This document shows, piece after piece, positions 17,254 through 55,237 of a stretch of 64,000 nucleotides of DNA (position 1 is the stretch's first letter; every line of letters begins with the position of its first letter). This DNA is from Microbispora sp. H13382 (GTDB lineage: Bacteria; Actinomycetota; Actinomycetes; Streptosporangiales; Streptosporangiaceae). Under the pieces are notes generated by a model that made no database searches, was not told the origin of the DNA, and worked only from the letters and a program-made list of their open reading frames with translations. The stretch is from positions 62,001 through 126,000 of the forward strand of contig NZ_JABBXA010000001.1 of NCBI RefSeq assembly GCF_014161445.1. The letters run 5' to 3'. The translations under genes were made by a program, and so were the position numbers.

Positions 17254-17330
17254 ACTGTGCGGCCCGGCGTAAGTCGCCAACAAGGCGAATGAAAGGCAGC
17301 ATGTTGCCCGCCGATAGCCGTTTCCTGCCA
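17254..17330 (-). promoter_or_regulatory. Shared promoter element, copy B (to the SDR-phzDE operon)
   Basis: Read on the minus strand from 17330, it shows TGGCAGGAA at offset 1, GCAACATGCTGC at offset 24-35, CGCCTTGTT at offset 44-52 and CACAGT at offset 72-77. TTGTTG and CACAGT could be -35 and -10 boxes with an 18-bp gap. Spacing to the other three copies is identical up to offset 52. The transcript would have a leader of roughly 145 nt before the SDR start. Confidence 0.72.
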
Positions 17331-17457
17331 ACACCGGCCCGCCTGGGAAAGAGCGGCCTGTGGTCCCCTCGCGACGGGCCCGGACCGTTCGCCGTGAATT
17401 GACTCAAGGTCAGAAGAATTGTCATCTCACGGGTTCCTCCCGGGCCGGGACGAGGGC

Positions 17458-17533
17458 TGGCAGGAAGCTGTACCACCCGGGCATCTTGCTGCCGCCGCCC
17501 TGTCTGGCCGGTGCCACGCAAACGCGCGAGATT
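17458..17533 (+). promoter_or_regulatory. Shared promoter element, copy A (to tyrA)
   Basis: From 17458 on the plus strand, TGGCAGGAA is at offset 1, GCATCTTGCTGC at offset 24-35 and CTGG at offset 47-50. The putative -10 position (offset 71-76) reads GAGATT, weaker than in the other copies. The tyrA start is about 40 bp downstream. The first 35 bp match the other copies best. Confidence 0.7.
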
Positions 17534-17571
17534 GCCGATGCGGAGATCCGTACTCGCACCAAGGGAGAGGC

Positions 17572-18459
17572 ATGATGACTTCGTCGTCGATTCGCCGCGT
17601 CACGATCATCGGCTGTGGTCTGATCGGCGCCTCTGCCGCGCTCGCGTTGCGCAAGGCGGGCGTCGAGGTCGCGCTGTCCGACCGCGACCCGCACGCGGTG
17701 GCCGTCGCCGAGCGGATGGGCGCGGGCGTCGCACTGACCCCCGGCGCTCCCGCGGCGGACGTGGTGGTCGTCGCCACGCCGCCGTCCACGGTGGCCGCCG
17801 TGCTGCGGGACGCCCAGGCCAGGGGGCTCGGCGCCGTCTACACCGACGTCGCCAGCACCAAGGCCCGCGTCGTCGCCGAGGCCGAGCGGGCGGGCTGCGA
17901 CCTCACCGCGTACGTGCCGGGGCACCCGATGGCCGGCGCGGAGGCGTCGGGCCCCCTGGCCGCCCGGGCGGACCTGTTCGCCGGACGGCCGTGGACGCTC
18001 TGCCCGCTTCCCACGACGCCGCTGCGGCCGGTGCGCGTGGTGGCCGAACTGGTGGCGGCGTGCGGAGCGGAGCACCGGCTGCTGGCGCCGGACGTCCACG
18101 ACCTGGCCGTCGCCGCGAGCTCGCACGCGCCGCACCTGGTCTCGGCGGCGCTGGCGGCGAGGTTCGCCGGCGCGGACGAGACCACGCTCTCCCTGGTGGG
18201 GCCGGGCCTGCGGGACGTCACGCGGGTCGCGGGTGGGGCCCCCGGCCTGTGGTGCGACATCCTCCGGCAGAACGCCGAGCCGGTCGCCGCCGTCCTGGAG
18301 GCGGTGGCGCGGGACCTGGCCGCCGCCGCGGCGGCGCTGCGCGACCCGGAGGGCGGGCAGTTGCTCGCCGACCTGCTCACGAAGGGCAACGACGGCCGCG
18401 CGCGCATCGTCGGCGGGGGCGCGGAGCACACGGCACCGGCCGGCGCCCTCGCGGCCTGA
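17572..18459 (+). CDS. tyrA: Prephenate dehydrogenase
   Basis: TyrA-like NAD(P)-dependent enzyme of 295 aa turning prephenate into 4-hydroxyphenylpyruvate. The dinucleotide motif GCGLIGASAALALRKAG is at the N-terminus. TDVASTKARVV, GHPMAGAEASGP and SHAPHLVSAAL are family landmarks, with the catalytic His among the last two. There is no C-terminal ACT regulatory domain, so it may escape tyrosine feedback. The gene diverges from the 3-hydroxyanthranilate operon and shares its promoter element, which suggests that a tyrosine-derived part and an anthranilate-derived part are made together. AAGGGAGAGG precedes two adjacent ATG codons (17572 and 17575); either may be used. Confidence 0.9.
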   Translation: MMTSSSIRRVTIIGCGLIGASAALALRKAGVEVALSDRDPHAVAVAERMGAGVALTPGAPAADVVVVATPPSTVAAVLRDAQARGLGAVYTDVASTKARVVAEAERAGCDLTAYVPGHPMAGAEASGPLAARADLFAGRPWTLCPLPTTPLRPVRVVAELVAACGAEHRLLAPDVHDLAVAASSHAPHLVSAALAARFAGADETTLSLVGPGLRDVTRVAGGAPGLWCDILRQNAEPVAAVLEAVARDLAAAAAALRDPEGGQLLADLLTKGNDGRARIVGGGAEHTAPAGALAA

Positions 18460-18859
18460 GCCGCGCCCCCGAGACGCCCCCGAGACGCCCCCGAGACGCC
18501 GCCGGCGCCTCGCGGCCTGACCGCGCTTCCTCCGAGAGCCCACCGGCGGCGATCGGTGGCGCCCCCGCCCCTGGACGGAGCCCGGGGCTGCGCAACCAGA
18601 AAGGTGTGCCGCCCGCGGGGCCGGTGCGACAGTCGAGGAGACCCAGCGGCGGCCACCGCACCGCACTGCACTGCACCGCACCGAGCTGCACCCACCGAGC
18701 TGCACCGCACCGAGGCTGCATCGCAGCGCACTGTGCCGCACGGAGCTGCACCGCAGCGCACTGTGCCGCGTCGCGGGCGCGGGCGTTCCGCCCGCCGCCA
18801 TGTGCCGTGAGCTGGGACGCGAGGAGCGGCTTCAGCGCCGACGGCACGAGGAGGAAACG
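18460..18859. repeat. Repeat-rich intergenic region
   Basis: About 400 bp without a plausible gene. It begins with four copies of GAGACGCCCCC-type units (about 18469-18500). Later, about 18655-18780, there are many CACCGCAC and GAGCTGCACCGC units, including two near-identical stretches around 18725 and 18755 that share GCAGCGCACTGTGCCGC. A GAGGAGGAAACG ribosome site ends the region. Promoter position is unclear. Confidence 0.65.
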
Positions 18860-20041
18860 ATGTTGACGACCGGGGTTCCGACACGGGAGGAACTGGTTCG
18901 GCGCGCGTCCGAACTGCTGCCGCTGCTGCGCGGCCACGCGGACTGGGCGGAGGAGAACCGGCGGATCCACGACGAGTCGATCGAGGCCCTGGCCGACGCC
19001 GGCGTCTTCAAGATGCGGGTGCCCGCCCGCTACGGCGGCTACGAGTGCGACACGCGGACCCTCCTCGAAGTGGCGGCCGAGCTCGGGCGGGCCGACGGCT
19101 CCACCGCCTGGACGGCGTCGGTCTACTGGATCCCGACCTGGATGACCTGCCTGTTCCCCGACGAGGTCCAGGACGAGGTGTTCTCGACGCCGGACGTGCG
19201 GGTGTGCGGCACGCTCAGCCCCACCGCCATGGCCGCCCCGGTGGACGGCGGCGTCGTGGTCAACGGCAAGTGGGGGTTCGTCAGCGGCGCCTGGCACAGC
19301 CACTGGCAGGAGATCGTGGCGATCCAGGTCGGCCCCGAGGGCGAGCCCATGCCGATCATGGCGCTGGTGCCGATGTCGGACCTGCAGATCGTGGACGACT
19401 GGCACACCTCCGGCCTGCGGGGCACCGGCAGCGTCACCACGGTCGCCCAGGACGTGTTCATCCCGGCCGAGCGGGTGCTTCCGCTGCCCGCGGTGCTCAT
19501 GGGGCAGTACGCGTCGAAGCTGAACGCCGCCAGCCCCATCTACCGGACGCCGCTGCTGCCGGTCGCCTCCGCGTCCTCGGTCGGCACGGTGATCGGCCTG
19601 GCCCGGGCGGCCAGGGAGGCGTTCTTCGAGCGCCTGCCCAACCGCAAGATCACCTACACGCACTACGAGAGCCAGAGCGAGGCCCCGCTGACCCACCTGC
19701 AGGTGGCGGAGGCGTCGCTCAAGATCGACGAGGCGGAGTTCCACGCCCAGCGCCTGACCGGCCTGGTGGACGGCAAGGGCGTGACGGGCGAGCAGTGGAC
19801 GCTGGAGGAGCGGGCCAGGGCGCGCGCCGACATGGGCGCGGTGTGCCGGCTGGGCAAGGAGGCCGCGGACGTCCTCGCCATGGCCAGCGGCGGTTCCTCC
19901 ATTTACACCCAGGTGCCGATCCAGCGGATCGCCCGTGACATCACCGCGGTGAACCTGCACGCGCTGATGCACCCCAACACCAACACCGAGCTGTACGGCC
20001 GGGTGCTGTGCGGCCAGGAGCCCGGCACCTTCTACATCTAG
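18860..20041 (+). CDS. Acyl-CoA dehydrogenase-like flavin monooxygenase (HsaA/group D type)
   Basis: Protein of 393 aa with the acyl-CoA dehydrogenase fold but with features of two-component flavin monooxygenases. It opens with REELVRRASELLPLLRGHADWAEENRRI, split here between residues 9 and 36. It has a central beta domain with GKWGFVSGAWHSHW, and ends with IQRIARDITAVNLHALM and GTFYI, like HsaA and other aromatic hydroxylases. The conserved catalytic Glu of true dehydrogenases is not apparent. It would use reduced flavin from a partner such as the reductase at 41,720. Candidate substrates are a carrier-bound aryl group or an amino sugar; nitrososynthases of the KijD3 group share the fold. 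GAGGAGGAAACG precedes the ATG. Confidence 0.8.
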   Translation: MLTTGVPTREELVRRASELLPLLRGHADWAEENRRIHDESIEALADAGVFKMRVPARYGGYECDTRTLLEVAAELGRADGSTAWTASVYWIPTWMTCLFPDEVQDEVFSTPDVRVCGTLSPTAMAAPVDGGVVVNGKWGFVSGAWHSHWQEIVAIQVGPEGEPMPIMALVPMSDLQIVDDWHTSGLRGTGSVTTVAQDVFIPAERVLPLPAVLMGQYASKLNAASPIYRTPLLPVASASSVGTVIGLARAAREAFFERLPNRKITYTHYESQSEAPLTHLQVAEASLKIDEAEFHAQRLTGLVDGKGVTGEQWTLEERARARADMGAVCRLGKEAADVLAMASGGSSIYTQVPIQRIARDITAVNLHALMHPNTNTELYGRVLCGQEPGTFYI

Positions 20042-20057
20042 ACCACACCCCCTCCGC

Positions 20058-20101
20058 CGAAACGGTTCCGCGGCCCGACGACGTGCCGCGGAACCGTTTC
20101 G
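20058..20101 (+). terminator. Strong stem-loop after the monooxygenase gene
   Basis: Perfect 17-bp stem (20058-20074 and 20085-20101) with a 10-nt loop, starting 16 bp after the stop codon. The plus-strand transcript should end here. Confidence 0.85.
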
Positions 20102-20166
20102 TATGTGTGCCCGGAGTCCTTCCGGCGTGCCCTGAGGGCGGGCGAAACGCCCGGGCAGACGGAAAA

Positions 20167-20195
20167 GCCGGAGGCGTGCGACACACGCCTCCGGC
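20167..20195 (-). terminator. Intrinsic terminator of the carrier-protein gene
   Basis: A 12-bp perfect stem (20167-20178 and 20184-20195) with a 5-nt loop. Read on the minus strand it is followed by TTTTCC, the layout of a rho-independent terminator. It lies 18 bp past the carrier-protein stop. Confidence 0.85.
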
Positions 20196-20213
20196 CACGA
20201 TGCGCCGGCTCGG

Positions 20214-20489
20214 TCACGCGGCGGGCGAGACCGCCGCCTTCCCCGCGACCATGCGGACCAGCGCGTCGAGGTTCGGGTCCTCCTCGAAGACGTCGCCGAC
20301 GTCGACGCTGACGCCGAGCTCCTCCTCGATGCGGGACACGAGGCGGACCGCGGCGATCGACTCGCCCTCCAGGTCGAAGAAGGTCGCGTCCTCACTTCCG
20401 TCCGGCACGTCGAGCACCTGCTTCCAGATCTCCGCGACCTTGGCCTCGATGACCGGGAGAACAAGCTCGCCGGGGTGATTGCCACTCAT
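20214..20489 (-). CDS. Free-standing acyl/peptidyl carrier protein
   Basis: Carrier protein of 91 aa. The phosphopantetheine serine is in FFDLEGESIAAVRLVSRIEE, matching the LGG(D/H)S(L/I) pattern with Glu-Gly-Glu before Ser. Helix 1 is VIEAKVAEIWKQVLDV, as in NRPS carriers. It is probably loaded by the adenylation enzyme at 1,576 and may present its aminoacyl group to the flavin monooxygenase encoded convergently. The holo form could be made by the PPTase at 55,526. The ATG at 20489 has GGGGAGGAC upstream; the frame extends another 22 codons but without similarity. Confidence 0.88.
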   Translation of the reverse strand: MSGNHPGELVLPVIEAKVAEIWKQVLDVPDGSEDATFFDLEGESIAAVRLVSRIEEELGVSVDVGDVFEEDPNLDALVRMVAGKAAVSPAA

Positions 20490-20600
20490 ACGGTGTCCTC
20501 CCCAAACGTCCACGATGGCGCGCATGGCGTCCTGCTGCCTGCTGGCTGCCCTCACAGCATCGCAACCGCCGGGGGTCGCGGCACCTCCCAGAGTGCGAGG

Positions 20601-23600
20601 TCAGGTCCTGACCACCGGTCCCAGTCCGTCCGAGATCCGCAGCCCGCCGCGGGCGTCGGGCCGGGCCCGCCGCGTACGGGAAAGCCGGTCGCGCACCTGC
20701 CGTCCGGCGCGCGGGTCGATCCGGTCAGCGAGGTCGAGCGTGCGGGTCATGGCGTCGTCGGCCTCGTCGTAGTCGCCCGTGGCGTACAACGCGTCGCTCA
20801 GCATGATCAGGGTCTGCGCTTCGAGCAGCGGCATCTGCATCCCGCGGAACAGGGAGGCCGCTCTGCGTAGATGCACCGCGGCCTGGTCGTTCTCGCCGTT
20901 CGCGACGGCGACCTCGCCGAGCCCCGACATCACGCGGGCCTCCGCGAGCCGGTGCCGCGAGCTGGTCGCGAGCCGCAGGGCCTCGCGCAGCGTCTCGCCG
21001 GCCTCGGCGATCCTGCCCTGGCGCAGCCGGGCGACGCCCAGGCCGTGCAGGGCGAACGCCTCGCCGATGGAGTCGCCGATGTCCCGCACGACCGTCAGCG
21101 ACTCCTCGAAGGCGCCGGCGGACAGGCCGAACTCGCCCGCCTGCAGATGCGCCTGCCCCATCCGGTGCAGCACCTGCGCCGTCACCCTGCGGTCGCCCCC
21201 GGCCTTGCTCCGCGTCAGCGCCTCGGAGAGCAGCGACTTGGCGCTGTCGAGGTCGTCGCAGTCGAGCCGCACCTGGGCGAGGCTGTGCAGGGTGTGCGCG
21301 GCGGAGACGTGGTCGCCCGCGGTGTGGAACACCTGCAGCGCCTTCTCGTAGTTGGCGACCGCCTCCGCGAACCGCCCGTTGATGCGTTCCAGGACCGCGA
21401 TGCTGCGGATCGCCAGGGCGATCCTGAGCTCGTCGCCGACCTCCTCGAACAGCCGCACCGCCGCGTCCAGCTCGCGCCTGGCGTCGTCGAACCGCTGCTC
21501 GCTGAACGACAGTGAGCCGATGGTGTACAGCATCTCGGCCTGGCCGCGCCGGTCCCCGGCCTGCCGCGCCGCCTCCAGCGCGAGCTCGTGGGTCTCCCGC
21601 CAGTCGTCCAGGTAGACCCGCGACTCGAAGAACATCGCGGCGTTCGCGGCGAGCCGCCAGCACAGCTCGACGAAGCCCGCCTGCGCCGCCTGCCGGATGC
21701 CGGAGACCAGCAGGTGACGCTCCCGCTCGAACCACGCCATCGGCTCGGCGACGAGCTGCTCGACGAGCTTTTCCGGCAGCGGCCGGGGGATCACGCTCTC
21801 CATCCGGGCGAGCACGTCGGAGCCGAACTCCCGCGACCTGGCCGCGTCCGTCAGCGACAGCAGCGAGCCGAGCACCCGGGACAACGCGGCCTTCCGCTCC
21901 GCCACCGGCTCCTCCGCGGCCAGGCGCTCGCGCGCGAACACCTTGACGAGGTCGTGGAACCGATACTGGGTGTGCGTCCCCCGGCCGACGGTCACCTCGA
22001 CGAGGTGGGCGTCGGCGAGGTTGTCGAGCAGGTCCTGGGCCTCGATGAACGAGCGGTCGAGCAGGGCCGCGCCGGTCCACACGGAGAATACGTGGGAGTC
22101 GAGGATCGCCAGCCGCCGCAGCAGCCGCCGCGCCTCCTCGCTGATGTTGTCGTAGGTGAGCGAGAGGCTGGCCCGGATGCCCATCTCGCCGTGCATCAGC
22201 TCGTCGAGCCTGCGTGTCTCGTCCCTGAGGCGGTCGACGAGTTGTTCGACGGTCCAGTGCGGGCGCGCCGCCAGCCGCGCGCCGGCGATGCGCAGGGCCA
22301 GGGGCAGATGGCCGCACAGGTCGGCGAGGGCCTCGGCGGAGCTCTGCTCCGACGCCACCCGCCCGCCGCCGGCCACCTGGGCGAGCAGGTCCACCGACTG
22401 GGCCGAGTCGAACAGGTCCACGTCGATGTGCGTGGCCCCGGCCAGCCCCACGAGGCGGCTGCGGCTGGTCACGATGACGGCGGAGGCGGGATTGCCCGGC
22501 AGCAGCGGCAGGACCTGGCTCTCGCTGCCCACGTCGTCCAGCACGATCAGCATCCTGCGGTCCGCGAGCAGCGTCCGGTACGTCTCCGCCCGCTCTTCGA
22601 GGCCGTCGGGGAGCGCGGTGCCGGGCACCCCGAGGGCGCGCAGGAAGCGTTCGAGCACCTGCATGGGGCTGACCGGGCGGGAGACCCCGCCGTGCATGTG
22701 GGCGAAGAGCTGACCGTCGGGGTAGTGGTCGGCGACGCTGTGCGCGGCGTGGACCGCGATGGTCGTCTTGCCGATGCCGGCGCGGCCGGCGATCGCGATG
22801 ATCGGCACGGCGAAGCGAGCCATGCCGTCGGAGACCTGCGTCAGCCGGCGCCGTATCTCGTCGAGGTGCCCGTGCCGGCCGATGAAGTCGGCGATTCCGG
22901 AGGGAAGCATGCCGGGGACCGGGGGAGGGGCGGCGGGCTCGGCCACGGAGATCCGCGCGCTATCCCGCTCCGGCGGCGCGTCGAGGCTCTCGTCCGCGGT
23001 GAGGATGCCGTGTTCGAGCTGCTGCAGCCGCTCGTTGGGCTCGATGCCCAGCTCGTCGATCATCATCCGCCGGGCGTCGCGGTAGACCTGCAGGGCCTCC
23101 GCCTGCCGGCTGGAACGGTACAACGCCGTCATGAACTGGCCGAGCAGCCGTTCGCGGAGCGGGTGCTCCTCCACGAGCCTGCGCAGCTCCGTCACCAGCT
23201 CGTGGTGCCGGCCGAGGTCGAGTTCGAGCTGGACGCAGTCCTCGTTCGCGGCGAGCCTCTCCTCGTCGAGCCAGCTCGCGGCGGCCTGGACCATCCTGCT
23301 CTCGATGCCTTCGAGTGCGGGGCCGCGCCAGAGGGACAGCGCCTCACGGTAGTGCCTGACGGCCTCGTCCACGTCCCGGTTGTCGCGCGCCTGCCGTGCC
23401 TTCAGCACGAGGCTCTCGAAGCGGTGCGCGTCGATCTGCTCGCTGTCGGTCCGCAAGGCGTATCCCTGGGACCGCGTGACGATCATCTGATCGTGGCCGT
23501 GGGCGCCGAACAGGCGCCGCAGGGCGGAGATGCAGATCTGCACCTGGGCCCGCGACGTGGCGGGTGGGTCGTCCCCGTAGATGGCCTCCATGAGACGGCC

Positions 23601-23726
23601 GACGGCGACCGGTCGGTTGGCCTCCAGCAGCAGCACGGCCAGGACTGTGTGCTGTCGCACACCCCCGAGGTCGAGTCGTTGCCCACCCTCCGTGACTTCG
23701 AGGGCTCCTAGCAGGCGAAACTCCAC
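20601..23726 (-). CDS. SARP-family regulator: winged HTH, BTAD, NB-ARC, TPR
   Basis: AfsR-like large SARP of 1,041 aa, expected to be a pathway activator. The N-terminal OmpR-type winged helix (1-95) begins VEFRLLGALEV. The bacterial transcription activation domain is at about 95-245 and ends RDARRMMIDELGIEPNERL. An NB-ARC ATPase follows, with Walker A AGRAGIGKTT (K320), LIVLDDV and VIVTSRSRL. TPR repeats from about 680 to 1,000 have helices such as AHTLHSLAQVRLDCDD. I choose the GTG at 23726: AGGGAG (23733-23738) lies 6 nt away and the product then starts exactly as other SARPs. ATG codons at 23732 and 23756 are alternatives with poor ribosome sites. It may bind the 11-bp-spaced repeats near 24,580 and 7,939. 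Confidence 0.85.
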   Translation of the reverse strand: MEFRLLGALEVTEGGQRLDLGGVRQHTVLAVLLLEANRPVAVGRLMEAIYGDDPPATSRAQVQICISALRRLFGAHGHDQMIVTRSQGYALRTDSEQIDAHRFESLVLKARQARDNRDVDEAVRHYREALSLWRGPALEGIESRMVQAAASWLDEERLAANEDCVQLELDLGRHHELVTELRRLVEEHPLRERLLGQFMTALYRSSRQAEALQVYRDARRMMIDELGIEPNERLQQLEHGILTADESLDAPPERDSARISVAEPAAPPPVPGMLPSGIADFIGRHGHLDEIRRRLTQVSDGMARFAVPIIAIAGRAGIGKTTIAVHAAHSVADHYPDGQLFAHMHGGVSRPVSPMQVLERFLRALGVPGTALPDGLEERAETYRTLLADRRMLIVLDDVGSESQVLPLLPGNPASAVIVTSRSRLVGLAGATHIDVDLFDSAQSVDLLAQVAGGGRVASEQSSAEALADLCGHLPLALRIAGARLAARPHWTVEQLVDRLRDETRRLDELMHGEMGIRASLSLTYDNISEEARRLLRRLAILDSHVFSVWTGAALLDRSFIEAQDLLDNLADAHLVEVTVGRGTHTQYRFHDLVKVFARERLAAEEPVAERKAALSRVLGSLLSLTDAARSREFGSDVLARMESVIPRPLPEKLVEQLVAEPMAWFERERHLLVSGIRQAAQAGFVELCWRLAANAAMFFESRVYLDDWRETHELALEAARQAGDRRGQAEMLYTIGSLSFSEQRFDDARRELDAAVRLFEEVGDELRIALAIRSIAVLERINGRFAEAVANYEKALQVFHTAGDHVSAAHTLHSLAQVRLDCDDLDSAKSLLSEALTRSKAGGDRRVTAQVLHRMGQAHLQAGEFGLSAGAFEESLTVVRDIGDSIGEAFALHGLGVARLRQGRIAEAGETLREALRLATSSRHRLAEARVMSGLGEVAVANGENDQAAVHLRRAASLFRGMQMPLLEAQTLIMLSDALYATGDYDEADDAMTRTLDLADRIDPRAGRQVRDRLSRTRRARPDARGGLRISDGLGPVVRT

Positions 23727-24105
23727 ATGCATCTCCCTCTGAAACTGCTGGACCATTGCACAGTGCGGATTACGGAGCTCGCTCTCCGCGATATGCGCAT
23801 TGCGGCCTCACATAAAGGCTCTCTCTGGGCGATGGCAGTTTACGGAATGTTTGCGATGGAGCCGTGAACACCGGCGGAAACGCTGTCAGGTGCGGTCGCC
23901 GCCGTTCTGACATGTAGTCGCCCGCGCGTCCCCTATTGACATTGTTGTCAGGGATCGTACAGCGCGAAACGGACGGTGGCTAGGCGAATGCGCGGTCCGG
24001 CAGGTGAACTCCGGTGCACGCTCGAATCTGCTAGGACGCCTTACCTGTTGAAAGTCGCTTAGTCAGAAAAGTGGCCGGGTGGCCGGACAATGCCCGGGAA
24101 AAGCG
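23727..24105. promoter_or_regulatory. Upstream region of the SARP gene with TGTCA/TGACA motifs
   Basis: No gene is seen in this interval. TGTCAGG occurs at 23889 and 23951, TGACATG at 23912, and a short dyad TGACATTGTTGTCA at 23937-23957 region. It is AT-richer than average around 23800-23860, where the SARP promoter probably lies on the minus strand. The repeated TGTCA may be operator half-sites; the factor is unknown. Confidence 0.45.
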
Positions 24106-24142
24106 CCGAGCGGCCGGAGACGCCAGGTCTCCGGCCGCTCGG
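24106..24142 (-). terminator. Intrinsic terminator of the small peptide gene
   Basis: A perfect 16-bp stem (24106-24121 and 24127-24142) with loop GCCAG. On the minus strand it follows the peptide stop codon by 8 bp and is followed by CGCTTTTCCC. This separates the peptide from the SARP gene. Confidence 0.85.
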
Positions 24143-24150
24143 GGGGTGAG

Positions 24151-24360
24151 TCAGTCCCAGGGGTTCACGTGGGTGTTGGTGGGGCTCGGCGACGGGATGC
24201 CGGCGGGGCTGTGCGGCTGCACGCTCCGGTGGACGACGGTGCGGGCGTGAGCGTGGGAAGCCGCCGCCACCGAGACCATCGCGCCCGCCGACGCCGCGGC
24301 CGTGAGGGCGATGAAGATGGAGACGGCGAATCGCTTGACGATGCTGCTGCTGCCGGCCAC
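24151..24360 (-). CDS. Small predicted secreted peptide ending NPWD
   Basis: ORF of 69 aa with a clear signal-peptide layout: SSSIVKRF, then a hydrophobic stretch AVSIFIALTAAASAGAMVSV, then AAASHAHA as a possible cleavage region. The remaining 30 or so residues are polar, His/Pro/Ser-rich and end THVNPWD. No cysteines. GTG start at 24360 with GGAGG (24368-24372) 7 nt upstream is a strong initiation signal, and a good terminator follows. No family recognised. It resembles the peptide at 52,797 only in size, N-terminal hydrophobic segment, lack of disulfide pairs and a Trp-containing C-terminal end. It could be a signal, a cell-surface peptide or a resistance accessory. Confidence 0.6.
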   Translation of the reverse strand: MAGSSSIVKRFAVSIFIALTAAASAGAMVSVAAASHAHARTVVHRSVQPHSPAGIPSPSPTNTHVNPWD

Positions 24361-24748
24361 TTGGATACCTCCACCCTGTGCGCGGCGCTCCGTACGCCGA
24401 TCGCTTACGGGACCGACGCTCACACCCCCCGCCATCGAGCCCTTATCGTCGCGCTTCCGGGATGCCATCACCGCAGGTCGAAGGGGTAGTGGGCGGTGGG
24501 ATGCGGGGGGTTGCGCCGCCGGCTGAGGGGTGCGGCCCGGCGGCGGCCCGGGCCCCCGCGGTGACGGGCCATGGCCGGACGATGCCTGGGCGATAGCGGG
24601 GCGATGCCGGGCCGATAACGGGGTGCGCCACTGTGACAGCAACCCGGGCGGCAACCGCACGCAGGCGGCGAAGCCCGGGTCACCACAAGGTCGGAAGACG
24701 AGAGCGTTGAGCCGGGCCGCAGGGGTCCCGGGATTGTGTGGCGGTGAG
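24361..24748. promoter_or_regulatory. Divergent promoter region between the peptide and the transthyretin-like gene
   Basis: This 388-bp stretch is GC-rich and probably non-coding. It contains the ribosome site of the peptide gene at its left end and, near its right end, the four CGAT heptamers described separately. The rest shows no clear feature. Confidence 0.55.
24580..24634 (+). promoter_or_regulatory. SARP-type operator: four heptamers at 11-bp steps
   Basis: CGATGCC, CGATAGC, CGATGCC and CGATAAC begin at 24580, 24591, 24602 and 24613. They are separated by 4-bp G-rich spacers. A -10-like CACTGT is at 24629-24634, 9 bp after the last heptamer, the distance at which SARPs act. The first gene downstream is the transthyretin-like gene at 24749. 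The array is absent before the other operons checked by eye. Confidence 0.65.
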
Positions 24749-25087: not shown

Positions 25088-25097
25088 GGAGCCGACC

Positions 25098-26894: not shown

Positions 26895-26898
26895 CCAC

Positions 26899-43650: not shown

Positions 43651-43685
43651 GGAGCAGCGCGCGGGGGAATCGGGTTGAAAGCGAG

Positions 43686-45660: not shown

Positions 45661-45725
45661 GACGAAATCGTAAAGGGATCCGGCGGGCGCGGGAATCGCT
45701 CGCGGCGGTTATGGGACCCCAGATT

Positions 45726-45757
45726 TCCGGATAGGGGACAGGGGGTCCGGATAGGGG
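45726..45757 (+). repeat. 12-bp direct repeat upstream of the sigma factor
   Basis: TCCGGATAGGGG occurs at 45726 and 45746, 20 bp apart (two helical turns). It lies 110-140 bp before the ECF sigma factor start. It may be an activator or sigma-factor recognition site. Confidence 0.6.
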
Positions 45758-45867
45758 TTGTGACGCCAGGTTGGGGCGGCCAATTCTGGCTCCGTTGGCC
45801 CAGGCCGCGGGAGAGCGCTTCTCAGCCCGCGGGCAGGGGACGCGGCCCTGTTGGGGAGTGGGGGCGG

Positions 45868-46431: not shown

Positions 46432-46469
46432 AGGTGACCTGAGTCGAACTGAGACACGAGGGAACGCCC

Positions 46470-48697: not shown

Positions 48698-48709
48698 GGG
48701 GGAGCCGAG

Positions 48710-49801
48710 ATGGGGGCCGTCCTCGCCCGCGCCACGCTGCCGGGCACGCTGGCGCAGGTCCGCCACGTCGCCCCGGTGCGCCCGAACGCGGCGCCGGACC
48801 TCGTCCGCCGGGTGTACGCGCAGGTCGAGCGGGACTTCGGCATGCTGGCGCCGCCCGTGATCCTGCACTCGCCCGCCCCGCCCGTCCTGGCCGCGTGCTG
48901 GCTGGCGCTGCGTGAGTCGCTGCTCGCGCGGGGCGCGGTCGCCCGGCAGGTCAAGGAGGCCGTCGCGACGGCCGTCTCGCGGGGCAACTCCTGCCCGTAC
49001 TGCGTGGACGTGCACCGGGCCACGCTGGACGCCCTCGTCAGACGTGGCGGCGCGGCCGCCGACCCCCGGACCTCGCGGATCGAGGAGTGGGCGCGGGCGG
49101 CCGCGCGGCGCGGGGAGGCCGCCTCGCACGCCCTCCCGGTGCCGCCGGACCAGGCCGCCGAGCTGATCGCGGTGGCCGTGACGTTCCAGTACCTGAACCG
49201 GATGGTCAACGTCTTCCTCGGCGACTCCCCGCTGCCCCCCGGAGTGCCCGTACGGGCCCGCAAGGGACTCATGCGGCTGTTCGGGCTGCTCATTGCCCCG
49301 GCGGCGAGCAGGGCGGCGACCCCGGGCGACTCGCTGAGCCTGCTGCCGGACGCGCCGCTGCCGCCCGACCTGTCCTGGGCGCGGGACGTTCCGCACGTCG
49401 CCGGGGCATTCGCCCGGGCTGCGGCGGCCGTGGAGGTGGCCGGGCGCCGCTCGGTGCCGGAACCGGTGCGCGACCTGGTCACGGACGTGCTCGACGGCTG
49501 GAACGGCGAGCCTCCCGGCCTGGGCCGCGCGTGGGTCGCCGGCGCCGTGTCCGTCCTGCCCGACCGGCACCGACCGGCCGGACGCCTGGCGCTGCTCACC
49601 GCCCTCGCCTCCTACCAGGTGGACGAGGGGGTCGTGGACGAATTCAGGCGCGCGGAGCCGGACGACCGGACGCTCGTCGAACTGACGGCGTGGGCCGCCA
49701 TGTCCGCCGCGCGCCGCGCCGGCGCCTGGGCCCACGAGGCCCGCCCGCATGTTGGTGACCGTGACACCGCGACGACTTCTAGTGAGAGGACTGCCCGATG
49801 A
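48710..49801 (+). CDS. AhpD-like/carboxymuconolactone decarboxylase-type protein
   Basis: Protein of 363 aa. The N-terminal half has the AhpD fold with a CxxC motif (NSCPYCVDVHRATLDAL, Cys pair at about residues 97 and 100). The C-terminal half repeats a similar helical pattern without CxxC. Such proteins are peroxidase or disulfide-linked redox proteins. In an enediyne producer it may protect from radicals or serve a redox step. ATG at 48710 follows GGGGAGC. Its stop overlaps the next gene by ATGA. Confidence 0.78.
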   Translation: MGAVLARATLPGTLAQVRHVAPVRPNAAPDLVRRVYAQVERDFGMLAPPVILHSPAPPVLAACWLALRESLLARGAVARQVKEAVATAVSRGNSCPYCVDVHRATLDALVRRGGAAADPRTSRIEEWARAAARRGEAASHALPVPPDQAAELIAVAVTFQYLNRMVNVFLGDSPLPPGVPVRARKGLMRLFGLLIAPAASRAATPGDSLSLLPDAPLPPDLSWARDVPHVAGAFARAAAAVEVAGRRSVPEPVRDLVTDVLDGWNGEPPGLGRAWVAGAVSVLPDRHRPAGRLALLTALASYQVDEGVVDEFRRAEPDDRTLVELTAWAAMSAARRAGAWAHEARPHVGDRDTATTSSERTAR

Positions 49802-50601
49802 CCCAGCTGGAGACCGTGCTCAGGGACCTCACCGCGGAGGGCGAGCAGCTCGACCGCATCGTGGCCGGCCTCGACCCGGACCAGTGGAACCTGCCCACCC
49901 CCGCGCCCGGATGGACGGTCAGGGACCAGATCGCCCACCTCACCTTCGTCTTCCGGCTGGCCGCGACGGCGGCGAGCGACCCCGCGGCGTTCGAGGCGAT
50001 GACCGCCCCGGCCAAGGGGAACTTCGACGCGGCGGTGAACGCCGCGCTCAAGATGTTCGAGAACGACACGCCGGCCGAACTGCTCGCCAAGTGGCGGTCG
50101 GTACGCGCGGAGGTGGTCGAGGCCCTACCCGCCGTGCCCGCGGACGCGACCGTGCCCTGGCTGGTCAACCCGCTGCCGCCGGTCGTGCTCGCGTGCGCCG
50201 GGATCATGGAGCAGTTCGCCCACGGGCAGGACATCGCCGACACGCTGGGAGTGGAACTCGAGCGCACCGACCGCCTGGGCCACCTCGTCGTGTTCGCCGT
50301 GCTCACCCGCGACTTCGGCTACCTGTCGCGCGGCCTCACGCCGCCGGCCGAGCAGTTCCGCTTCGAGATCACCGCGCCCTCCGGCCAGGTGTGGGCGTAC
50401 GGGCCCGAGGACGCCGAGCAGCGGGTCTCCGGCCCCGCCGCCGACTTCTGCCTGCTGGTGACCCGGCGCCGGCACCGGGACGACCTCGCGGTCACGGCCG
50501 TCGGCGCCGAGGCCGACCGCTGGCTGGACATCGCCCAGGCCTACCGCGGCCCGGCCGGACAGGGCCGCAGGCCGGGCCAGTTCGCTCCCGCGCGCGTGTA
50601 G
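49798..50601 (+). CDS. TIGR03084-type metal-binding DinB/maleylpyruvate isomerase-like protein
   Basis: Protein of 267 aa with the mycothiol-dependent maleylpyruvate isomerase N-terminal fold (DinB superfamily). WTVRDQIAHLTFVF has the first metal His and EQFAHGQDIADTLG the second pair. The family is annotated as metal-binding with unknown substrate. Some DinB proteins use mycothiol for detoxification, so a protective or ring-opening role is plausible. Overlaps the upstream gene by four bases. Confidence 0.75.
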   Translation: MTQLETVLRDLTAEGEQLDRIVAGLDPDQWNLPTPAPGWTVRDQIAHLTFVFRLAATAASDPAAFEAMTAPAKGNFDAAVNAALKMFENDTPAELLAKWRSVRAEVVEALPAVPADATVPWLVNPLPPVVLACAGIMEQFAHGQDIADTLGVELERTDRLGHLVVFAVLTRDFGYLSRGLTPPAEQFRFEITAPSGQVWAYGPEDAEQRVSGPAADFCLLVTRRRHRDDLAVTAVGAEADRWLDIAQAYRGPAGQGRRPGQFAPARV

Positions 50602-50626
50602 CGGGAGGCGGAGTAAGGAGGAACCG

Positions 50627-51715
50627 ATGAGGCCCACACCCGCGGGCTTCCGGACGGCGGGGGAGACGCCGGGGACGGCGGGAGAGGTGGCCGGCTGCCT
50701 GGACGGCACGGTCCACCTCGCGTACGCGCGGGCGTCGGCGGCCGATCCTCCGGTGGTCGCCGCCGGTTTCTCCGCCGAGGCGGCACTGTCCAGGGCACGG
50801 GCCCGCGCCCGGGCCCTGGGCCTGCTGCGTGAAGGACCCGCACCGCGGGCGACGCCCGGCGGGGGCGGCAGGGCACTGCGCCTGTCCGATTTCGTGCCGC
50901 ACCCCATCGCGCCGCAGCTCATCGCGCCGCACGCCGCCGCGCCGCACGCCGCCGTGCCGCACGCCACCGTGCCGCACCCCACCGGGAGCGGCGGCCCGCT
51001 CGTCGCGGGCAGGGGGCTGCTGACCGGTGCCGGTTACCGGCTGCCGGGCGAGGTCGTGTGGCTGCGGGAGCACGGTGGCCCGGTCGAGCCCACCGCGATC
51101 GGCGTGGTGGACGACTGCGCCCCCGCCGGCGTCGCCGACGTGCTCGCCCACGACGCGGTCCTCCGGTGGCGGGCCGCGTCCCGCCGCCCGCCGCTGCGGA
51201 TCACGCCGTACCTCGGCGGACTGCTGCCACCCGGGGTCGCGGAGGCGGCCTCCGGGCTCGGCCTGTCGATCTCGGCGTACGTGCTGCCGGCCGGCGAGGT
51301 CAGGACCGTGCTCGTACGCGTGCGCGGCGCGGCCACGACCACGGCCGCCGCCTGCGGGCGCACGCTCGGTGCGGCGGTGCGCGAGGCTTTCCTGCTCGCG
51401 GTCGCGGCCGGGGCGCAGCCGGGGCAGGCCGTCCCGGACCTGGGCGCGCCGAGCCGCCTCGTCGCGTGGCGCCACGAGGACGGTCACCCGGCGGACCTGG
51501 AGCGCACGGCCGTCGACGCCGATCCCGGGATCGTCGACGAGCCCGCCGGGCCCGTCCCGTCCGGCTGGGCGGGCGTCGCCTACCGCCGGTTCGGGCACGA
51601 GCCGATCCTCGTCGAGGCGGGGGAGTCCCGCGAGGCCGTCAAGGTGGTCTGCCCGGGCGCCTCCTGCTACCGGCGAGAGCGGCCGGGGATCGAGGTGCCG
51701 TGTCCGGTTCGCTAG
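50627..51715 (+). CDS. YcaO-like protein with degenerate active site
   Basis: Protein of 362 aa. The segments GFSAEAALSRARARARAL and GVADVLAHDAVLRWRAASR align with YcaO sequence (the second with ELIERDAVALWW-like regions), and TAAACGRTLGAAVREAFLLA with the C-terminal half. The Glu residues that bind Mg-ATP in active YcaO are replaced (AH for ER, for example). A Pro/His/Ala-rich stretch (about residues 90-120, from a 15-nt DNA repeat) breaks the N-terminal part. YcaO proteins form azolines or thioamides in RiPP pathways, yet degenerate ones act as scaffolds. There is no E1-like partner. It is followed by a TrmB/LuxR regulator and a small convergent peptide gene. Family assignment is by eye and moderate. 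Confidence 0.5.
   Translation: MRPTPAGFRTAGETPGTAGEVAGCLDGTVHLAYARASAADPPVVAAGFSAEAALSRARARARALGLLREGPAPRATPGGGGRALRLSDFVPHPIAPQLIAPHAAAPHAAVPHATVPHPTGSGGPLVAGRGLLTGAGYRLPGEVVWLREHGGPVEPTAIGVVDDCAPAGVADVLAHDAVLRWRAASRRPPLRITPYLGGLLPPGVAEAASGLGLSISAYVLPAGEVRTVLVRVRGAATTTAAACGRTLGAAVREAFLLAVAAGAQPGQAVPDLGAPSRLVAWRHEDGHPADLERTAVDADPGIVDEPAGPVPSGWAGVAYRRFGHEPILVEAGESREAVKVVCPGASCYRRERPGIEVPCPVR
50905..50985 (+). repeat. 15-nt in-frame repeat in the YcaO-like gene
   Basis: About five copies of GCCGCACGCCNCCGT-type units encode alternating Pro-His-Ala residues (APHAAAPHAAVPHATVPHPT). The unit keeps the frame. Confidence 0.75.
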
Positions 51716-51776
51716 TCCCCGCCCCGTCGCACACCCCGTCGCGCGGATCGCACCACGAAGACGCGGGAGGTGAGCC

Positions 51777-52763
51777 GTGGACGTCTCCGTGATCGGCATC
51801 TCACCCGAGGCGGCCGAGATCTACCGGTATTTCCTCCGGTGCAAGGGCGAGGGAGTCGGTTCGGTGCCGGAGGCGCTGGGCCTGTCCGCGGACACCGTCG
51901 AGGCTGCCGTGGAGACGCTCAGCCGGCTGTCCCTGCTCGACATCGCCGACCGGCACAGGGTCGTGGCGACGGAGCCGCGCATCGGCATCGAGCGGCTGGT
52001 GGAAAAGCGCCTCAACGAGCTCAACGCCGAGATCCGGCGGGTCCTGGCGGCGCGCGACGCGATCGCCGTCTTCATGGAGGACAAGCACGAGGGCGACCGC
52101 GCGGCGACGGTCCTCGACATCGAACGGGTGGAAGGCGTCGAGCGGGTTCGCCAGCGCATCGACGACCTCGCCTTCTTCTCCTACAAGGAGACGCTCTGCC
52201 TGCATCCGGGCGGCCCGTTCAGCCGGGTGATGATCGAGTCGGCGCTGCCGCTGGACACCCGCTCGCTGCGCCGGGGCCTGGCGATCAAGGGCGTCTACCA
52301 CCCGGCCGCGCTCGACGACCCGTTCATGGTGTCCTACCTGCGCGAGCTGGTCAGCCTCGGCGCCGAGGTGCGCGTCACCGATCAGCCGATGGACCGCATG
52401 CTCATCTACGACCGGAGCGCCGCCGTCGTGCCCATCGACCCCAAGGAGAGCGCGAAGGGCGCGTTGCTGGTCAGGGAGCCCGGGCTGGTCTCCCAGCTCG
52501 TCATCTACTTCGACGGGGTGTGGAAGTCGGCCACCGACTTCCGCGACATCATGGAGCCCACGACCATGGAGCCCGCGCTGTCGGAGATGGAGCAGCGGGT
52601 GCTCGCGGTGATGGCCACGGCGGACAAGGACGAGATCGCGGCCAGGGAGCTGGACGTCTCGGTGCGGACCTACCGGCGCTACGTGGCCGATCTGATGGCC
52701 AGGCTCGGCGCCGTCAACCGGTTCCAGGCGGCCCTGCGGGCCAAGGAGGAGAACTGGATCTGA
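51777..52763 (+). CDS. TrmB/LuxR-type transcriptional regulator
   Basis: Regulator of 328 aa. The N-terminal winged-helix half (about 1-85, SVPEALGLSADTVEAAVETL) resembles TrmB-type domains, and a central ligand-like domain follows (about 110-260). The C-terminal LuxR-type HTH (about 268-325) contains LSEMEQRVLAVMATADKDEI and LDVSVRTYRRYVADLMARLG. Such proteins are common next to actinobacterial secondary-metabolite genes. GGGAGGTGAG lies before the GTG start. It converges on the small peptide gene whose promoter has copy C of the shared element, so it is a candidate regulator of that element; this is inference. Confidence 0.82.
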   Translation: MDVSVIGISPEAAEIYRYFLRCKGEGVGSVPEALGLSADTVEAAVETLSRLSLLDIADRHRVVATEPRIGIERLVEKRLNELNAEIRRVLAARDAIAVFMEDKHEGDRAATVLDIERVEGVERVRQRIDDLAFFSYKETLCLHPGGPFSRVMIESALPLDTRSLRRGLAIKGVYHPAALDDPFMVSYLRELVSLGAEVRVTDQPMDRMLIYDRSAAVVPIDPKESAKGALLVREPGLVSQLVIYFDGVWKSATDFRDIMEPTTMEPALSEMEQRVLAVMATADKDEIAARELDVSVRTYRRYVADLMARLGAVNRFQAALRAKEENWI

Positions 52764-52796
52764 GCTCGGTGCGGGGCCCACGCGGGGGCGCGGCGC

Positions 52797-53027
52797 TCAC
52801 CCCCACGTGTTGCCGTACTGCACCGGGCTGCCCCAGGTGTTCCCGTCGTTGCCGTCGGCGAGCACGGTGATCCGCGGCCCGTCGTCCGCGACGCCTGCGC
52901 CTCCCGCCGTGCTCGCCATGCCGGCCGTGCCCGCCGCGAGCCCGCACGCGAGGGCGCCGGACGCCAGGGCGATGGCCCACTTGAGGGTGCTCCACGAAGC
53001 GGTGGGGGAGGAGACCAGGGTCTTCAT
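52797..53027 (-). CDS. Small predicted secreted peptide ending QYGNTWG
   Basis: Peptide of 76 aa. Residues 1-16 are polar with one Lys, a hydrophobic stretch follows (WAIALASGALACGLAAGTAG, with one Cys), and the mature part would be about 35-40 aa: ADDGPRITVLADGNDGNTWG followed by SPVQYGNTWG, a doubled NTWG. GAGAAGG lies before the ATG. The promoter is copy C of the shared element, about 40 bp upstream. No family recognised. It is not a lasso, lanthipeptide or thiopeptide precursor by composition. It could be a secreted signal, a RiPP precursor for the YcaO-like protein, or a surface peptide. Confidence 0.65.
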   Translation of the reverse strand: MKTLVSSPTASWSTLKWAIALASGALACGLAAGTAGMASTAGGAGVADDGPRITVLADGNDGNTWGSPVQYGNTWG

Positions 53028-53073
53028 CTCGGTGCCTTCTCTCGCTGCCGGAGGGGTTGTTCTCGCACTACCT

Positions 53074-53149
53074 ACTGTGCGGCGCCACAGGACCCGGAAC
53101 CAGGCGTCCGGCGTGCAGCAAGCTGCACCGGCGTTACCGCTTCCTGCCA
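53074..53149 (-). promoter_or_regulatory. Shared promoter element, copy C (to the small peptide gene)
   Basis: From 53149 on the minus strand: TGGCAGGAA at offset 1, GCAGCTTGCTGC at offset 24-35, CGCCTGGTT at offset 44-52 and CACAGT at offset 71-76. It matches copy D at 32 of the first 35 positions. TGGTTC and CACAGT are 17 bp apart. The peptide ATG is about 47 bp downstream of the -10-like hexamer. Confidence 0.78.
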
Positions 53150-53268
53150 TCCCGGCGCCGCATGGCAAAGGAGGAGGTGACAGCGCGGGCCCGCGAGATT
53201 TTGACTGAGGCCACGTGACCCGGAACGCCGGCGCGCGCACAACGCGCACCGCGGGGGAAGGAACGCTG

Positions 53269-54885
53269 ATGAGCATCTCGGAACTCGACGTCGCACCGGC
53301 GGACCTGCCGCCGCGGACGCCCCCGGAGCGGCCGGCCCGTTCGATGGGCGCGCTGCGCGAGGAGCTGGCGCGGCTGCGCGCCCGGACCGTCGCCGGCCGT
53401 CCCGACGGCGTGGCCCGGCAGCACGCGCTGGGCAAGCGGACCGCCCGCGAGCGGCTGGACCTGCTGCTCGACGAGGGCTCGTTCGTGGAGATCGACATCT
53501 ACCGGCGGCACCGGGCGCAGGGGCTGGGCATGGACGGGCGGCGCCCGCACACCGACGGCGTCGTCGCCGGCTCCGGCACCGTCCACGGCCGGCGGGTGTT
53601 CGTCTACGCCCAGGACTTCACGGTCTTCGGCGGCTCCCTGGGGGAGGCGCACGCCGAGAAGATCCACAAAGTGATGGACCTCGCCATGTCCACCGGCTCG
53701 CCGTTCATCGGCCTGAACGACAGCGGCGGCGCGCGGATCCAGGAGGGGGTGATGTCCCTCAACGGCTACGGCGGCATCTTCCGGCGCAACGTCCAGGCGT
53801 CCGGCGTGATCCCGCAGATCAGCGTCGTGCTCGGGCCCTGCGCCGGAGGCGCGGCCTACTCCGCCGCGCTGGCCGACTTCACCTTCATGGTGCAGGGCAC
53901 CTCGCAGCTCTACCTGACCGGGCCGGACGTCGTCGAGGCGGTGACCGGCCAGCGGGTCACCCACGCCGAGCTGGGCGGCGCCCAGGTCCACGGCACCCGC
54001 TCGGGCGTGGCGGCGTTCGTGCACGACGACGAGGAGGCCTGCCTGGCGGAGGTGCGCTACCTCCTCTCGATGCTGCCGGGCAACAACCTCGAACCGCCGC
54101 CCGCGGCGCCGCCGTGCGACGCGTCCCGCGACACGCGCCCGCGCCTGGCGGAGATCGTTCCGGCCGAGCCCAGCAAGCCGTACGACATGCGCGAGGTGAT
54201 CGCGGAGCTGGTCGACGACGGCGACTTCCTCGAACTGCACGAGGGCTGGGCGCGCAACGTGATCTGCGCGCTGGCCCGCGTCGACGGCGCGGTGGTCGGA
54301 GTGGTCGGGAACCAGCCCCTGGTGCTCGCGGGCGTGCTGGACGCCGACGCGGCGCAGAAGGCGGCCAGGTTCGTGCGGTTCTGCGACGCCTTCAACATCC
54401 CGCTGGTGACCCTCGTCGACGTGCCGGGCTTCCTCCCCGGCACCGACCAGGAGTACGCCGGCATCATCCGGCACGGCGCCAAACTGCTCTACGCGTACTG
54501 CGAGGCGACCGTGCCCCGCATCCAGGTCATCCTCCGCAAGGCGTACGGCGGGGCCTACATCGTGATGGACTCCCGGTCGATCGGCGCGGACCTGTCGCTT
54601 GCGTGGCCGACCAACGAGATCGCGGTGATGGGCGCCGAGGGCGCGGTCAACGTCGTCTTCCGCCGTGAGCTCGCCGCCGCGGCCGACCCCGCGGGCCTGC
54701 GCGCGGAGCTGCTCGCCCGGTACGCCGGTGAGCTGGTCCACCCGCAGTACGCAGCCGAGCGCGGCCTGGTCGACGACGTGATCGACCCGGTGCAGACGCG
54801 CTCCGCCGTCGCCCGCGGCCTCGCCATGCTGCGCGACAAGCGCAAGCCGGGGGCGCAGCGCAAGCACGGGAACGTGCCCCTGTAA
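53269..54885 (+). CDS. accB: Acyl-CoA carboxylase carboxyltransferase (beta) subunit
   Basis: Carboxyltransferase of 538 aa, AccB/PccB type, with the N-terminal RTARERLDLLLDEGSF, the CoA-binding GPCAGGAAYSAAL and the C-terminal GAEGAVNVVF. The residue that sets acyl-CoA choice in the Streptomyces coelicolor enzymes (Asp422 in PccB, Ile in AccB) reads AYGGAYIVMDS here, with Ile431, which fits acetyl-CoA and malonyl-CoA production. No alpha subunit is nearby; the epsilon-like gene lies at 29,894. The ATG at 53269 has GGGGAAGGA upstream; the frame is open for 18 more codons. Confidence 0.9.
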   Translation: MSISELDVAPADLPPRTPPERPARSMGALREELARLRARTVAGRPDGVARQHALGKRTARERLDLLLDEGSFVEIDIYRRHRAQGLGMDGRRPHTDGVVAGSGTVHGRRVFVYAQDFTVFGGSLGEAHAEKIHKVMDLAMSTGSPFIGLNDSGGARIQEGVMSLNGYGGIFRRNVQASGVIPQISVVLGPCAGGAAYSAALADFTFMVQGTSQLYLTGPDVVEAVTGQRVTHAELGGAQVHGTRSGVAAFVHDDEEACLAEVRYLLSMLPGNNLEPPPAAPPCDASRDTRPRLAEIVPAEPSKPYDMREVIAELVDDGDFLELHEGWARNVICALARVDGAVVGVVGNQPLVLAGVLDADAAQKAARFVRFCDAFNIPLVTLVDVPGFLPGTDQEYAGIIRHGAKLLYAYCEATVPRIQVILRKAYGGAYIVMDSRSIGADLSLAWPTNEIAVMGAEGAVNVVFRRELAAAADPAGLRAELLARYAGELVHPQYAAERGLVDDVIDPVQTRSAVARGLAMLRDKRKPGAQRKHGNVPL

Positions 54886-55237
54886 GCGTCCCACCCTCGC
54901 GACTGCCCATCCCCACGCCCGCCTCAGCCTCGCGCCTGCCCCTACCCCTCGCGTCCGCCCAGCCTCGCGCCCGCCCCGCCCGTCTGTGGCGGCGGCGGGC
55001 GTTCGCGTGCCCGGACGCCTCCGCTGGCAGGATGCGGTAACCCCGCTGCAGCTTGCTGCCTGGGCAAGCCCTGGTTCCACGCCCCCCACGGCCGCACATT
55101 GAAGGTGTGACGACAACAGGCAGCGGACGGAGGCGGTGGCCCGCGGGCGCCCGCCTCCCCGGAGGAGCCGCGTGCGGGGCCCGGCCGCCGCGGCGCGCGA
55201 GGCCGCCAGGCCGGCGGCCGGAGAGGGAGCCGAGGCC
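54886..55237 (+). other. Intergenic region with C-rich repeats and copy D of the shared element
   Basis: About 350 bp between accB and the next small gene. The first 130 bp are C-rich with GCCTCGCGCC(T/C)GCCC-like repeats. The shared promoter element occupies 55025-55100. After it there are 137 bp of GC-rich leader with weak ORF signal. Confidence 0.6.
55025..55100 (+). promoter_or_regulatory. Shared promoter element, copy D (to the small gene and PPTase)
   Basis: From 55025 on the plus strand: TGGCAGGAT at offset 1, GCAGCTTGCTGC at offset 24-35, CCTGGTTCC from offset 46 and CACATT at offset 71-76. Spacing is identical to copy C. The first clear coding start downstream is 55238. Confidence 0.78.

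Follow-up and report, generated by a model that had tools for sequence, protein, structure and literature searches.

Introduction

Autoregulated control of actinomycete natural-product clusters, of the kind that we propose here, is known from gamma-butyrolactone signalling in Streptomyces. The present work concerns a stretch of 64,000 nucleotides from Microbispora sp. H13382 (assembly GCF_014161445.1, contig NZ_JABBXA010000001.1, positions 62,001 to 126,000 of the forward strand; hereafter the window), in which a promoter-like element with two palindromic boxes occurs four times. One copy stands before the gene of a small tryptophan-containing peptide, and this gene lies beside that of a LuxR-type regulator. 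Signals of Actinobacteria are described in the introduction of PMC10075063 as typically being small molecules made by enzymes. Peptide signals are nevertheless not unheard of in these bacteria, since a 2016 review (PMC4748050), in its treatment of signalling, names cyclic or modified peptides alongside butyrolactones, and calls LuxR proteins 'intriguing'. In the RRNPP systems of Firmicutes, as outlined in PMC10075063, a small, often secreted propeptide is encoded beside a one-component intracellular receptor, also on plasmids and near biosynthetic clusters; the locus studied here is like them in that a small peptide gene lies next to the gene of a candidate receptor.

We consider it fairly probable that the four copies are the operators of a peptide–regulator circuit, probably autoinducing, which governs chorismate/3-hydroxyanthranilate genes, the prephenate dehydrogenase gene tyrA and an operon for a 4'-phosphopantetheinyl transferase (PPTase).

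Results and discussion

The four copies match TGGCAGGAW-N14-GCANCWTGCTGC with 0 mismatches and start at 17458 (+), 17330 (-), 53149 (-) and 55025 (+); places, strands and fixed spacing are those given by an earlier, sequence-only reading of the window. All four are intergenic as judged by the accepted gene starts. A scan of the window allowing up to 3 mismatches returned just these copies against 0.01 expected from 100 shuffles. In the organism's whole genome (8,709,848 bases) a loosened pattern matched these four copies with 0 mismatches and no place with 1, its other matches being scattered and differing at 2–3 letters; the genome-wide pattern search thus yielded no further copy at 0–1 mismatches. 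Up to 3 mismatches there were 43 places, fewer than the 87 matched by a control pattern, and we therefore take the weak ones as noise. With a scoring matrix built from 60 sites of other genomes, the window sites being excluded, the four copies scored 45.9–50.8 bits; the runner-up in the window, leaving aside these palindromes read backwards, reached −13.7. The expectation in the window, the uniqueness below 2 mismatches in the genome and the gap in matrix score all bear out the initial view that the likeness of the copies is not due to chance.

Copy A (17458–17493, +) lies upstream of tyrA, and copy B (17295–17330, -) upstream of the genes for a short-chain dehydrogenase/reductase (SDR), PhzD- and PhzE-like enzymes, a hydroxylase and AsnB. 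Copy C (53114–53149, -) precedes the peptide gene, and copy D (55025–55060, +) the genes for p88, the PPTase and a hydrolase. As had been noted, copies C and D have the same letter at 32 of 35 positions. Each operator is followed by a promoter-like part, spanning 17504–17533 (+) for copy A, 17254–17284 (-) for copy B, 53074–53103 (-) for copy C and 55071–55100 (+) for copy D. At offset 47–52 this part reads CTGGCC in copy A (17504–17509), CTTGTT in copy B (17279–17284) and CTGGTT in copies C (53098–53103) and D (55071–55076). At offset 71–76 it reads GAGATT in copy A (17528–17533), CACAGT in copy C (53074–53079) and CACATT in copy D (55095–55100), and copy B has its CACAGT (17254–17259) one base later, at 72–77. 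The downstream boxes that had been described as partly kept are thus real at their offsets apart from this shift in copy B, though weaker than the operator part; other genomes carry CTGGTT and CASAGTTG at the same positions.

The element is better kept than its surroundings in a second Microbispora genome (G075). There, 32 of the 36 operator letters of copy A (4 changed), 33 of those of copy B (3 changed) and all 36 of copies C and D are conserved. Taking operator and boxes together, copies A and B keep 88 of 96 letters against 175 of 254 in the surroundings, copy C 48 of 48 against 169 of 210 (end gaps included) and copy D 48 of 48 against 238 of 319. A dispersed repeat or a chance likeness with no regulatory role would find some support in Sphaerisporangium-type genomes, where many near-identical copies occur. 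It is opposed by the 0.01 places expected in the window, by the better conservation of the boxes than of the surroundings between Microbispora genomes and by the narrow distance from element to start codon, and we regard its probability as practically negligible.

The anatomy of the element was drawn from a profile of 71 sites, taken from the window and from 40 fetched regions that were chosen by hand among the listed places of a search through the family; one palindromic place (L068) enters twice, once per strand, and 11 of the 71 sites, copy C included, overlap an open reading frame (ORF) called by our own script based on third-position GC (GC3). Positions 2–15 read GGCAGSAAGCKGYC and positions 23–36 GGCARCTTGCTGCC, each a 14-bp palindrome of the 6-2-6 type with centres 21 bp apart, the second being cleaner than the first. 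They are followed by CTGGTT at 47–52, by CASAGT and then TG at 71–76 and beyond, and by GTGCGAGAACAAA at about 82–94. This layout looks like an activator double site with a weak −35/−10 pair (CTGGTT-N18-CASAGT), in support of the first description of a promoter element with two boxes 21 bp apart and a −35-like box just downstream. Palindromes of the 6-2-6 type fit dimers of GerE-type proteins, as in NarL-type regulators.

At up to 1 mismatch the element was found in 40 of 341 genomes of the family Streptosporangiaceae and in 11 of 68 genera, with up to 18 copies per genome, whereas a control pattern matched once. A pattern search through the order matched 37 of 297 genomes and added little outside the family, the listed matches belonging to family f1.

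The protein that we propose as operator binder is a 328-aa LuxR-type regulator encoded at 51777–52763 (+), with a GerE helix-turn-helix (HTH) and a DUF6879/TrmB-like middle part, and a 97% match to a protein of Microbispora sp. H11081. Its GerE HTH scores 28.2 bits against a Pfam cut-off of 23.5. Pfam found both GerE and DUF6879 in all 16 members examined, and the TrmB sensor domain in two of them; no tetratricopeptide repeat (TPR) family was among their matches at E up to 0.1, and the sensor is not of the acyl-homoserine-lactone, response-receiver or LAL type by Pfam. The HTH end is nearly invariant across 16 homologues, and a search of solved structures gave seven matches, all on the C-terminal HTH part.

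Relatives of this regulator are the DNA-binding proteins kept in most element loci (19 of 41, many of which do not reach the genes around the regulator, hereafter the module), followed by a family that we take to be MarR-like (7 of 41) and the AraC family (6 of 41). The regulator profile exceeded 500 bits in 41 of the 341 family genomes; 38 of these carry the element too, three have the regulator only (G156, G183 and G208), two further genomes have the element only (G067 and G291) and 298 have neither. The 500-bit line was drawn after a gap between 506 and 397 bits had been seen; at E 1e-60 the regulator would be counted in 48 genomes. In 31 named loci found by the regulator alone, from Planotetraspora, Streptosporangium, Planobispora, Planomonospora, Nonomuraea, Sphaerisporangium, Microbispora, Sphaerimonospora and Rhizohabitans (Streptosporangiaceae), the element was present at up to 1 mismatch to a 36-base consensus in 23 and at up to 3 mismatches in 27.

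Two other regulators encoded in the window, a SARP (20601) and an AraC protein (43759), were weighed as binders of the element. Relatives of the AraC protein were seen in 11 of the 31 regulator loci (one at 24% identity) and of the SARP in three (two at 31–32%); these and all further counts for the regulator loci cover up to 10 kb on each side, with some loci cut by contig ends, and the AraC and SARP searches were confined to these flanks. Since the 51777 protein accompanies the element in 38 of 40 genomes and relatives of the other two occur in 11 and three of the 31 regulator loci, it is favoured among the three, and likely binds the element. That the element is instead a site of the SARP, the AraC protein or another regulator is suggested by the presence of both genes in the window, and SARPs bind repeats near the −35 region. 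Their operators are tandem heptamers, however, whereas the element is palindromic, and 23 of the 31 regulator loci keep the element at up to 1 mismatch. Both candidates are disfavoured by these counts, and a binder other than the 51777 protein is highly improbable.

Behind copy C lies a gene for a 76-aa peptide (52797–53027, -; the coordinates of the sequence-only reading are corrected here), the proposed signal precursor, which contains a hydrophobic stretch and, at its C-terminal end, two GNTWG motifs. The end of this gene is 33 bases from that of the regulator gene. In a family search, from which the row for L066 is left out, the peptide matched nothing in Pfam or NCBIfam at E up to 1. The peptide had been called secreted; the gene behind copy C is confirmed, and export is a predicted part of the circuit proposed below. 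A small ORF with a tryptophan (W) motif begins 110–145 bases after the element start at 42 of the 71 profiled sites, the gene of the 76-aa peptide among them, and at 122–124 bases in 28 of these 42. Thirty-eight of the 42 peptides have two or more motifs, two have one and two show only a TTRD ending; GTTWD, GNTWP, GNTWG, STWD, GNGWG and VWDEL are the motifs met. A fixed rule, applied to flanks of at most 10 kb (12 kb in the case of L202), found a W-peptide in 18 of 32 regulator loci; the rule accepts a single motif if a palindrome like the second site lies upstream, and is not fully independent of the operator. In some genomes the W-peptide lies far from the regulator, at about 70 kb in G153.

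G075 also holds a fifth copy of the element (contig C43, L059:10159, -) with 1 mismatch. The peptide that follows it carries four VWDEL repeats and one VWDQL, five of the VWD type in all, in contrast to the GNTWG peptide that this genome also encodes. In Sphaerisporangium-type genomes, which reach the 18 copies mentioned above, many copies stand upstream of stand-alone peptides of 35–46 aa. In L050, L051, L052, L053 and L069, all of genus g52, several near-identical units of element and peptide, usually with three GTTWD motifs, are arranged in tandem or scattered among unrelated genes, and six such units fall within some 6 kb of L050.

More distant relatives of the regulator were sought in two samples. 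At 1e-50 the profile matched 4 of 396 genomes in a sample of the phylum, the organism's own included and the other three in family f3, and at 1e-25 it found 48 of 246 genomes across the class, 8 of them in the family of the window. One locus of f3 (L187) has nearly the same peptide as a Streptomyces locus (L204), for which reason we read f3 as the Streptomyces family. Twenty distant regions were fetched, 14 from f3 and six holding paralogues from the window's own family. In eight of them a gene no more than 1.2 kb from the regulator encodes a small peptide whose N-terminal part is hydrophobic and which has a W motif towards its end (NGWQ, NNDWQ, DGAGWQ twice, FGWN, DPGWQ twice, DSLWD, LGWQ and GIIWD); a ninth has a peptide with five GAGWD repeats 1.8 kb away. 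Family f3 accounts for six of these nine. Applied to 48 kb of control loci, which came from the window's own genome only, the rule gave no W-peptide. From a plasmid collection 12 regions were picked among 20 listed of 83 matching records, and eight hold a W-peptide, picked by eye among the annotated small proteins (FNWD, NDWK, TDWQ, HDWG, TWGG, NTWGP, HGWQ and GIGWD three times). One without such a peptide, L202 of Nonomuraea gerenzanensis, has the element with 1 mismatch. A palindrome like the second site occurs within 300 bases upstream of 10 of 17 distant peptides, with p of at most 0.035 by simple shuffling; three of these ten are closely related to one another.

The neighbours of these distant pairs vary. 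On Streptomyces plasmids (L203–L205) the pair lies directly beside daptide biosynthesis genes (mpaB and mpaM); L207, which has no W motif, is surrounded by genes for a SARP, a diaminopimelate (DAP) decarboxylase and adenylating enzymes, and L209 by SARP and ATP-grasp genes. The peptide therefore appears to be tied to the regulator and not to one chemistry. An ScbA-type gene lies near the pair of L203.

Taken together, these observations are consistent with a circuit of the following kind. The 51777 protein would act as a dimeric one-component activator of the LuxR type that sits on both palindromes, on one face of the helix, and recruits RNA polymerase at the weak −35/−10 pair. Copy C would drive the small peptide with GNTWG repeats, most likely the signal of the circuit, which may be exported and cut to short tryptophan peptides that would re-enter the cell and bind to the DUF6879/TrmB-like middle part of the regulator. 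The loaded regulator would then raise the expression of the peptide's own gene, of the 3-hydroxyanthranilate-type genes, of tyrA and of the p88–PPTase–hydrolase operon; autoinduction would follow because copy C lies before the peptide gene.

Several observations weigh against this circuit. No peptide was recognised behind 29 of the 71 sites, and two of the 42 peptides retain only the decayed TTRD ending. As many as 24 of the 42 come from Sphaerisporangium-type loci and are in many cases near-identical, and those of 35–46 aa have no hydrophobic stretch, which many other peptides do have by hydropathy and inspection. Among the distant regions, 11 of 20 by the rule and 4 of 12 by eye (L202, L207, L208 and L212) have no W-peptide, and 7 of 17 distant W-peptides have no palindrome like the second site. 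In G067 the element occurs with no strong match to the regulator; the DNA fetched for L138 and L145 contains the regulator and not the element, and that for L137 and L149 shows weak likeness only. The association of regulator and element gives a Fisher p of 2e-44, which is overstated and no true probability, as the profile derives from loci that bear the element and the genomes have common ancestry; the absence of the regulator from nearly all other genomes is independent of this bias. The aromatic-branch genes of the window are rare in the 31 regulator loci (PhzE and the hydroxylase 0, SDR 2, tyrA 2, AsnB 3, PhzD 4). Finally, the YcaO-like protein of the module would fit a modified-peptide product.

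This last point leads to a different reading, in which the sites are operators of the 51777 regulator and the W-peptide is a precursor of the kind found for ribosomally synthesised and post-translationally modified peptides (RiPPs), yielding a YcaO-modified product and not a signal. Relatives of the YcaO-like protein are found in 25 of the 31 regulator loci, the threonine- and tryptophan-containing repeats resemble core peptides, and Sphaerisporangium-type genomes carry multi-copy peptide genes. On Streptomyces plasmids, however, the peptides lie beside unrelated pathways with no YcaO among the listed annotations, which are incomplete according to the collection's own note; the GNGWG motif is devoid of threonine, and the feature that stays with the regulator is the short C-terminal tryptophan motif. 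We think it unlikely that the peptide is a precursor of this type.

The regulator could alternatively answer another ligand, such as a pathway intermediate, with the peptide serving as antagonist, feedback brake or unrelated effector. TrmB-type sensors bind sugars in known cases, and the presence of DUF6879 in 16 and of the TrmB sensor domain in two of the 16 members would suit a ligand of this sort, as would the short Sphaerisporangium-type peptides that have no hydrophobic stretch. The neighbouring pathways nevertheless differ widely while the peptide with its tryptophan motif often stays, and a non-peptide ligand appears distinctly improbable to us.

Among the genes that the proposed circuit would control, tyrA (17572–18459, +) lies behind copy A. 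Behind copy B the first gene encodes a DhbA-like SDR (16340–17104, -), followed by a gene at 15588–16301 (-) for what we assume to be a PhzD-like enzyme and one for an anthranilate-synthase-like PhzE (13693–15591, -). Genes for a FAD hydroxylase (12455–13648, -) and an asparagine synthase (10583–12427, -) continue in the direction of copy B. A 3-hydroxyanthranilate branch close to the window's enediyne genes is suggested by the PhzE/DhbA-type and hydroxylase genes within 10583–20041. Other loci presumably use tryptophan dioxygenase and kynureninase, as if two routes served one need.

In the module, a diverged YcaO-like protein is encoded at 50627–51715 (+). PF02624 was matched in 2 of 12 homologues (best E 4.2e-4) and not in the window protein itself, and a search of solved structures returned a single, uninformative match (E 0.2). 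Nine of 12 aligned homologues end in PxPxP (PCPVP or PCPIP), and the window protein in PCPVR. An acyl-CoA carboxylase carboxyltransferase (53215–54885, +; the start may be 53272) has relatives in 30 of the 31 regulator loci. Behind copy D follow p88 (55238–55501, +; 24 of 31), a conserved protein of no known family (87–90 aa, in the window 87) which may have a role in the circuit, the PPTase (55526–56287, +; 24 of 31) and an alpha/beta hydrolase (56388–57110, +; 23 of 31). Small proteins that resemble p88 by eye lie beside the regulator in Streptomyces-type DNA (L183, L185 and L206). The proposal that the peptide, the PPTase and both chorismate branches belong to one regulon is upheld as far as shared operators go. 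In other genomes copies also stand upstream of SDR and TyrA relatives and of p88–PPTase operons, and of what we take to be genes for tryptophan 2,3-dioxygenase, acyl-AMP ligases and MFS transporters.

The element had at first been assigned to the enediyne cluster. The matrix scan of the window found no site upstream of polyketide synthase (PKS), DUF1702, SARP or LAL genes, nor of any enediyne gene, and relatives of the DUF1702 protein are present in none of the 31 regulator loci. With the spread of the element through the family, this led us to abandon the assignment and to reject an enediyne-wide element. The operator marks regulons by sequence alone, and in the window it sets the 3-hydroxyanthranilate-type and tyrA genes apart from the enediyne genes.

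Comparison with described systems

A literature search, with most subscription journals outside its coverage, returned no description of the element, of the peptide motifs or of the regulator–peptide pair; the papers hit by sequence letters were judged unrelated. Compared with gamma-butyrolactone signalling, the candidate signal here is gene-encoded, and neither a butyrolactone synthase nor a TetR-type receptor is among the named module genes in the window. The autoinduction of microbisporicin in Microbispora corallina reportedly concerns the lantibiotic itself and involves the extracytoplasmic function (ECF) sigma factor MibX and MibR; regulator and element are not those described here. What it has in common with our locus, as far as PMC4973701 goes, is the genus and a ribosomal peptide that is tied to its own regulation. 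SARP operators differ in that the element is palindromic and that no SARP relative was found in 28 of the 31 regulator loci. Regulators of the LuxR/GerE (NarL) type are closer, with a C-terminal GerE HTH above the Pfam cut-off and palindromic 6-2-6 sites, yet the sensor is of another type and the site here is double, with a spacing of 21 bp.

In PMC10075063, RRNPP receptors are given as 250–500 aa, a range into which the 328 aa of the 51777 protein fall, and a TPR receptor is treated as their defining feature. The regulator described here combines a GerE HTH with a DUF6879/TrmB-like part and shows no TPR by Pfam; the system of the window resembles RRNPP in layout and, because no TPR was found in its regulator, is not a member. 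It differs further in its actinomycete host and in its tryptophan-motif peptides, often tandem repeats, whose role would be that of the proposed signal. With evenly balanced confidence, we suggest that actinomycetes have widespread gene-encoded tryptophan-motif pheromones, each with a LuxR-type DUF6879/TrmB-like receptor unrelated to RRNPP, which would switch natural-product clusters on chromosomes and plasmids via a common palindromic operator. If this is true, a short synthetic peptide would be a simple handle for trying to wake the clusters beside such pairs.

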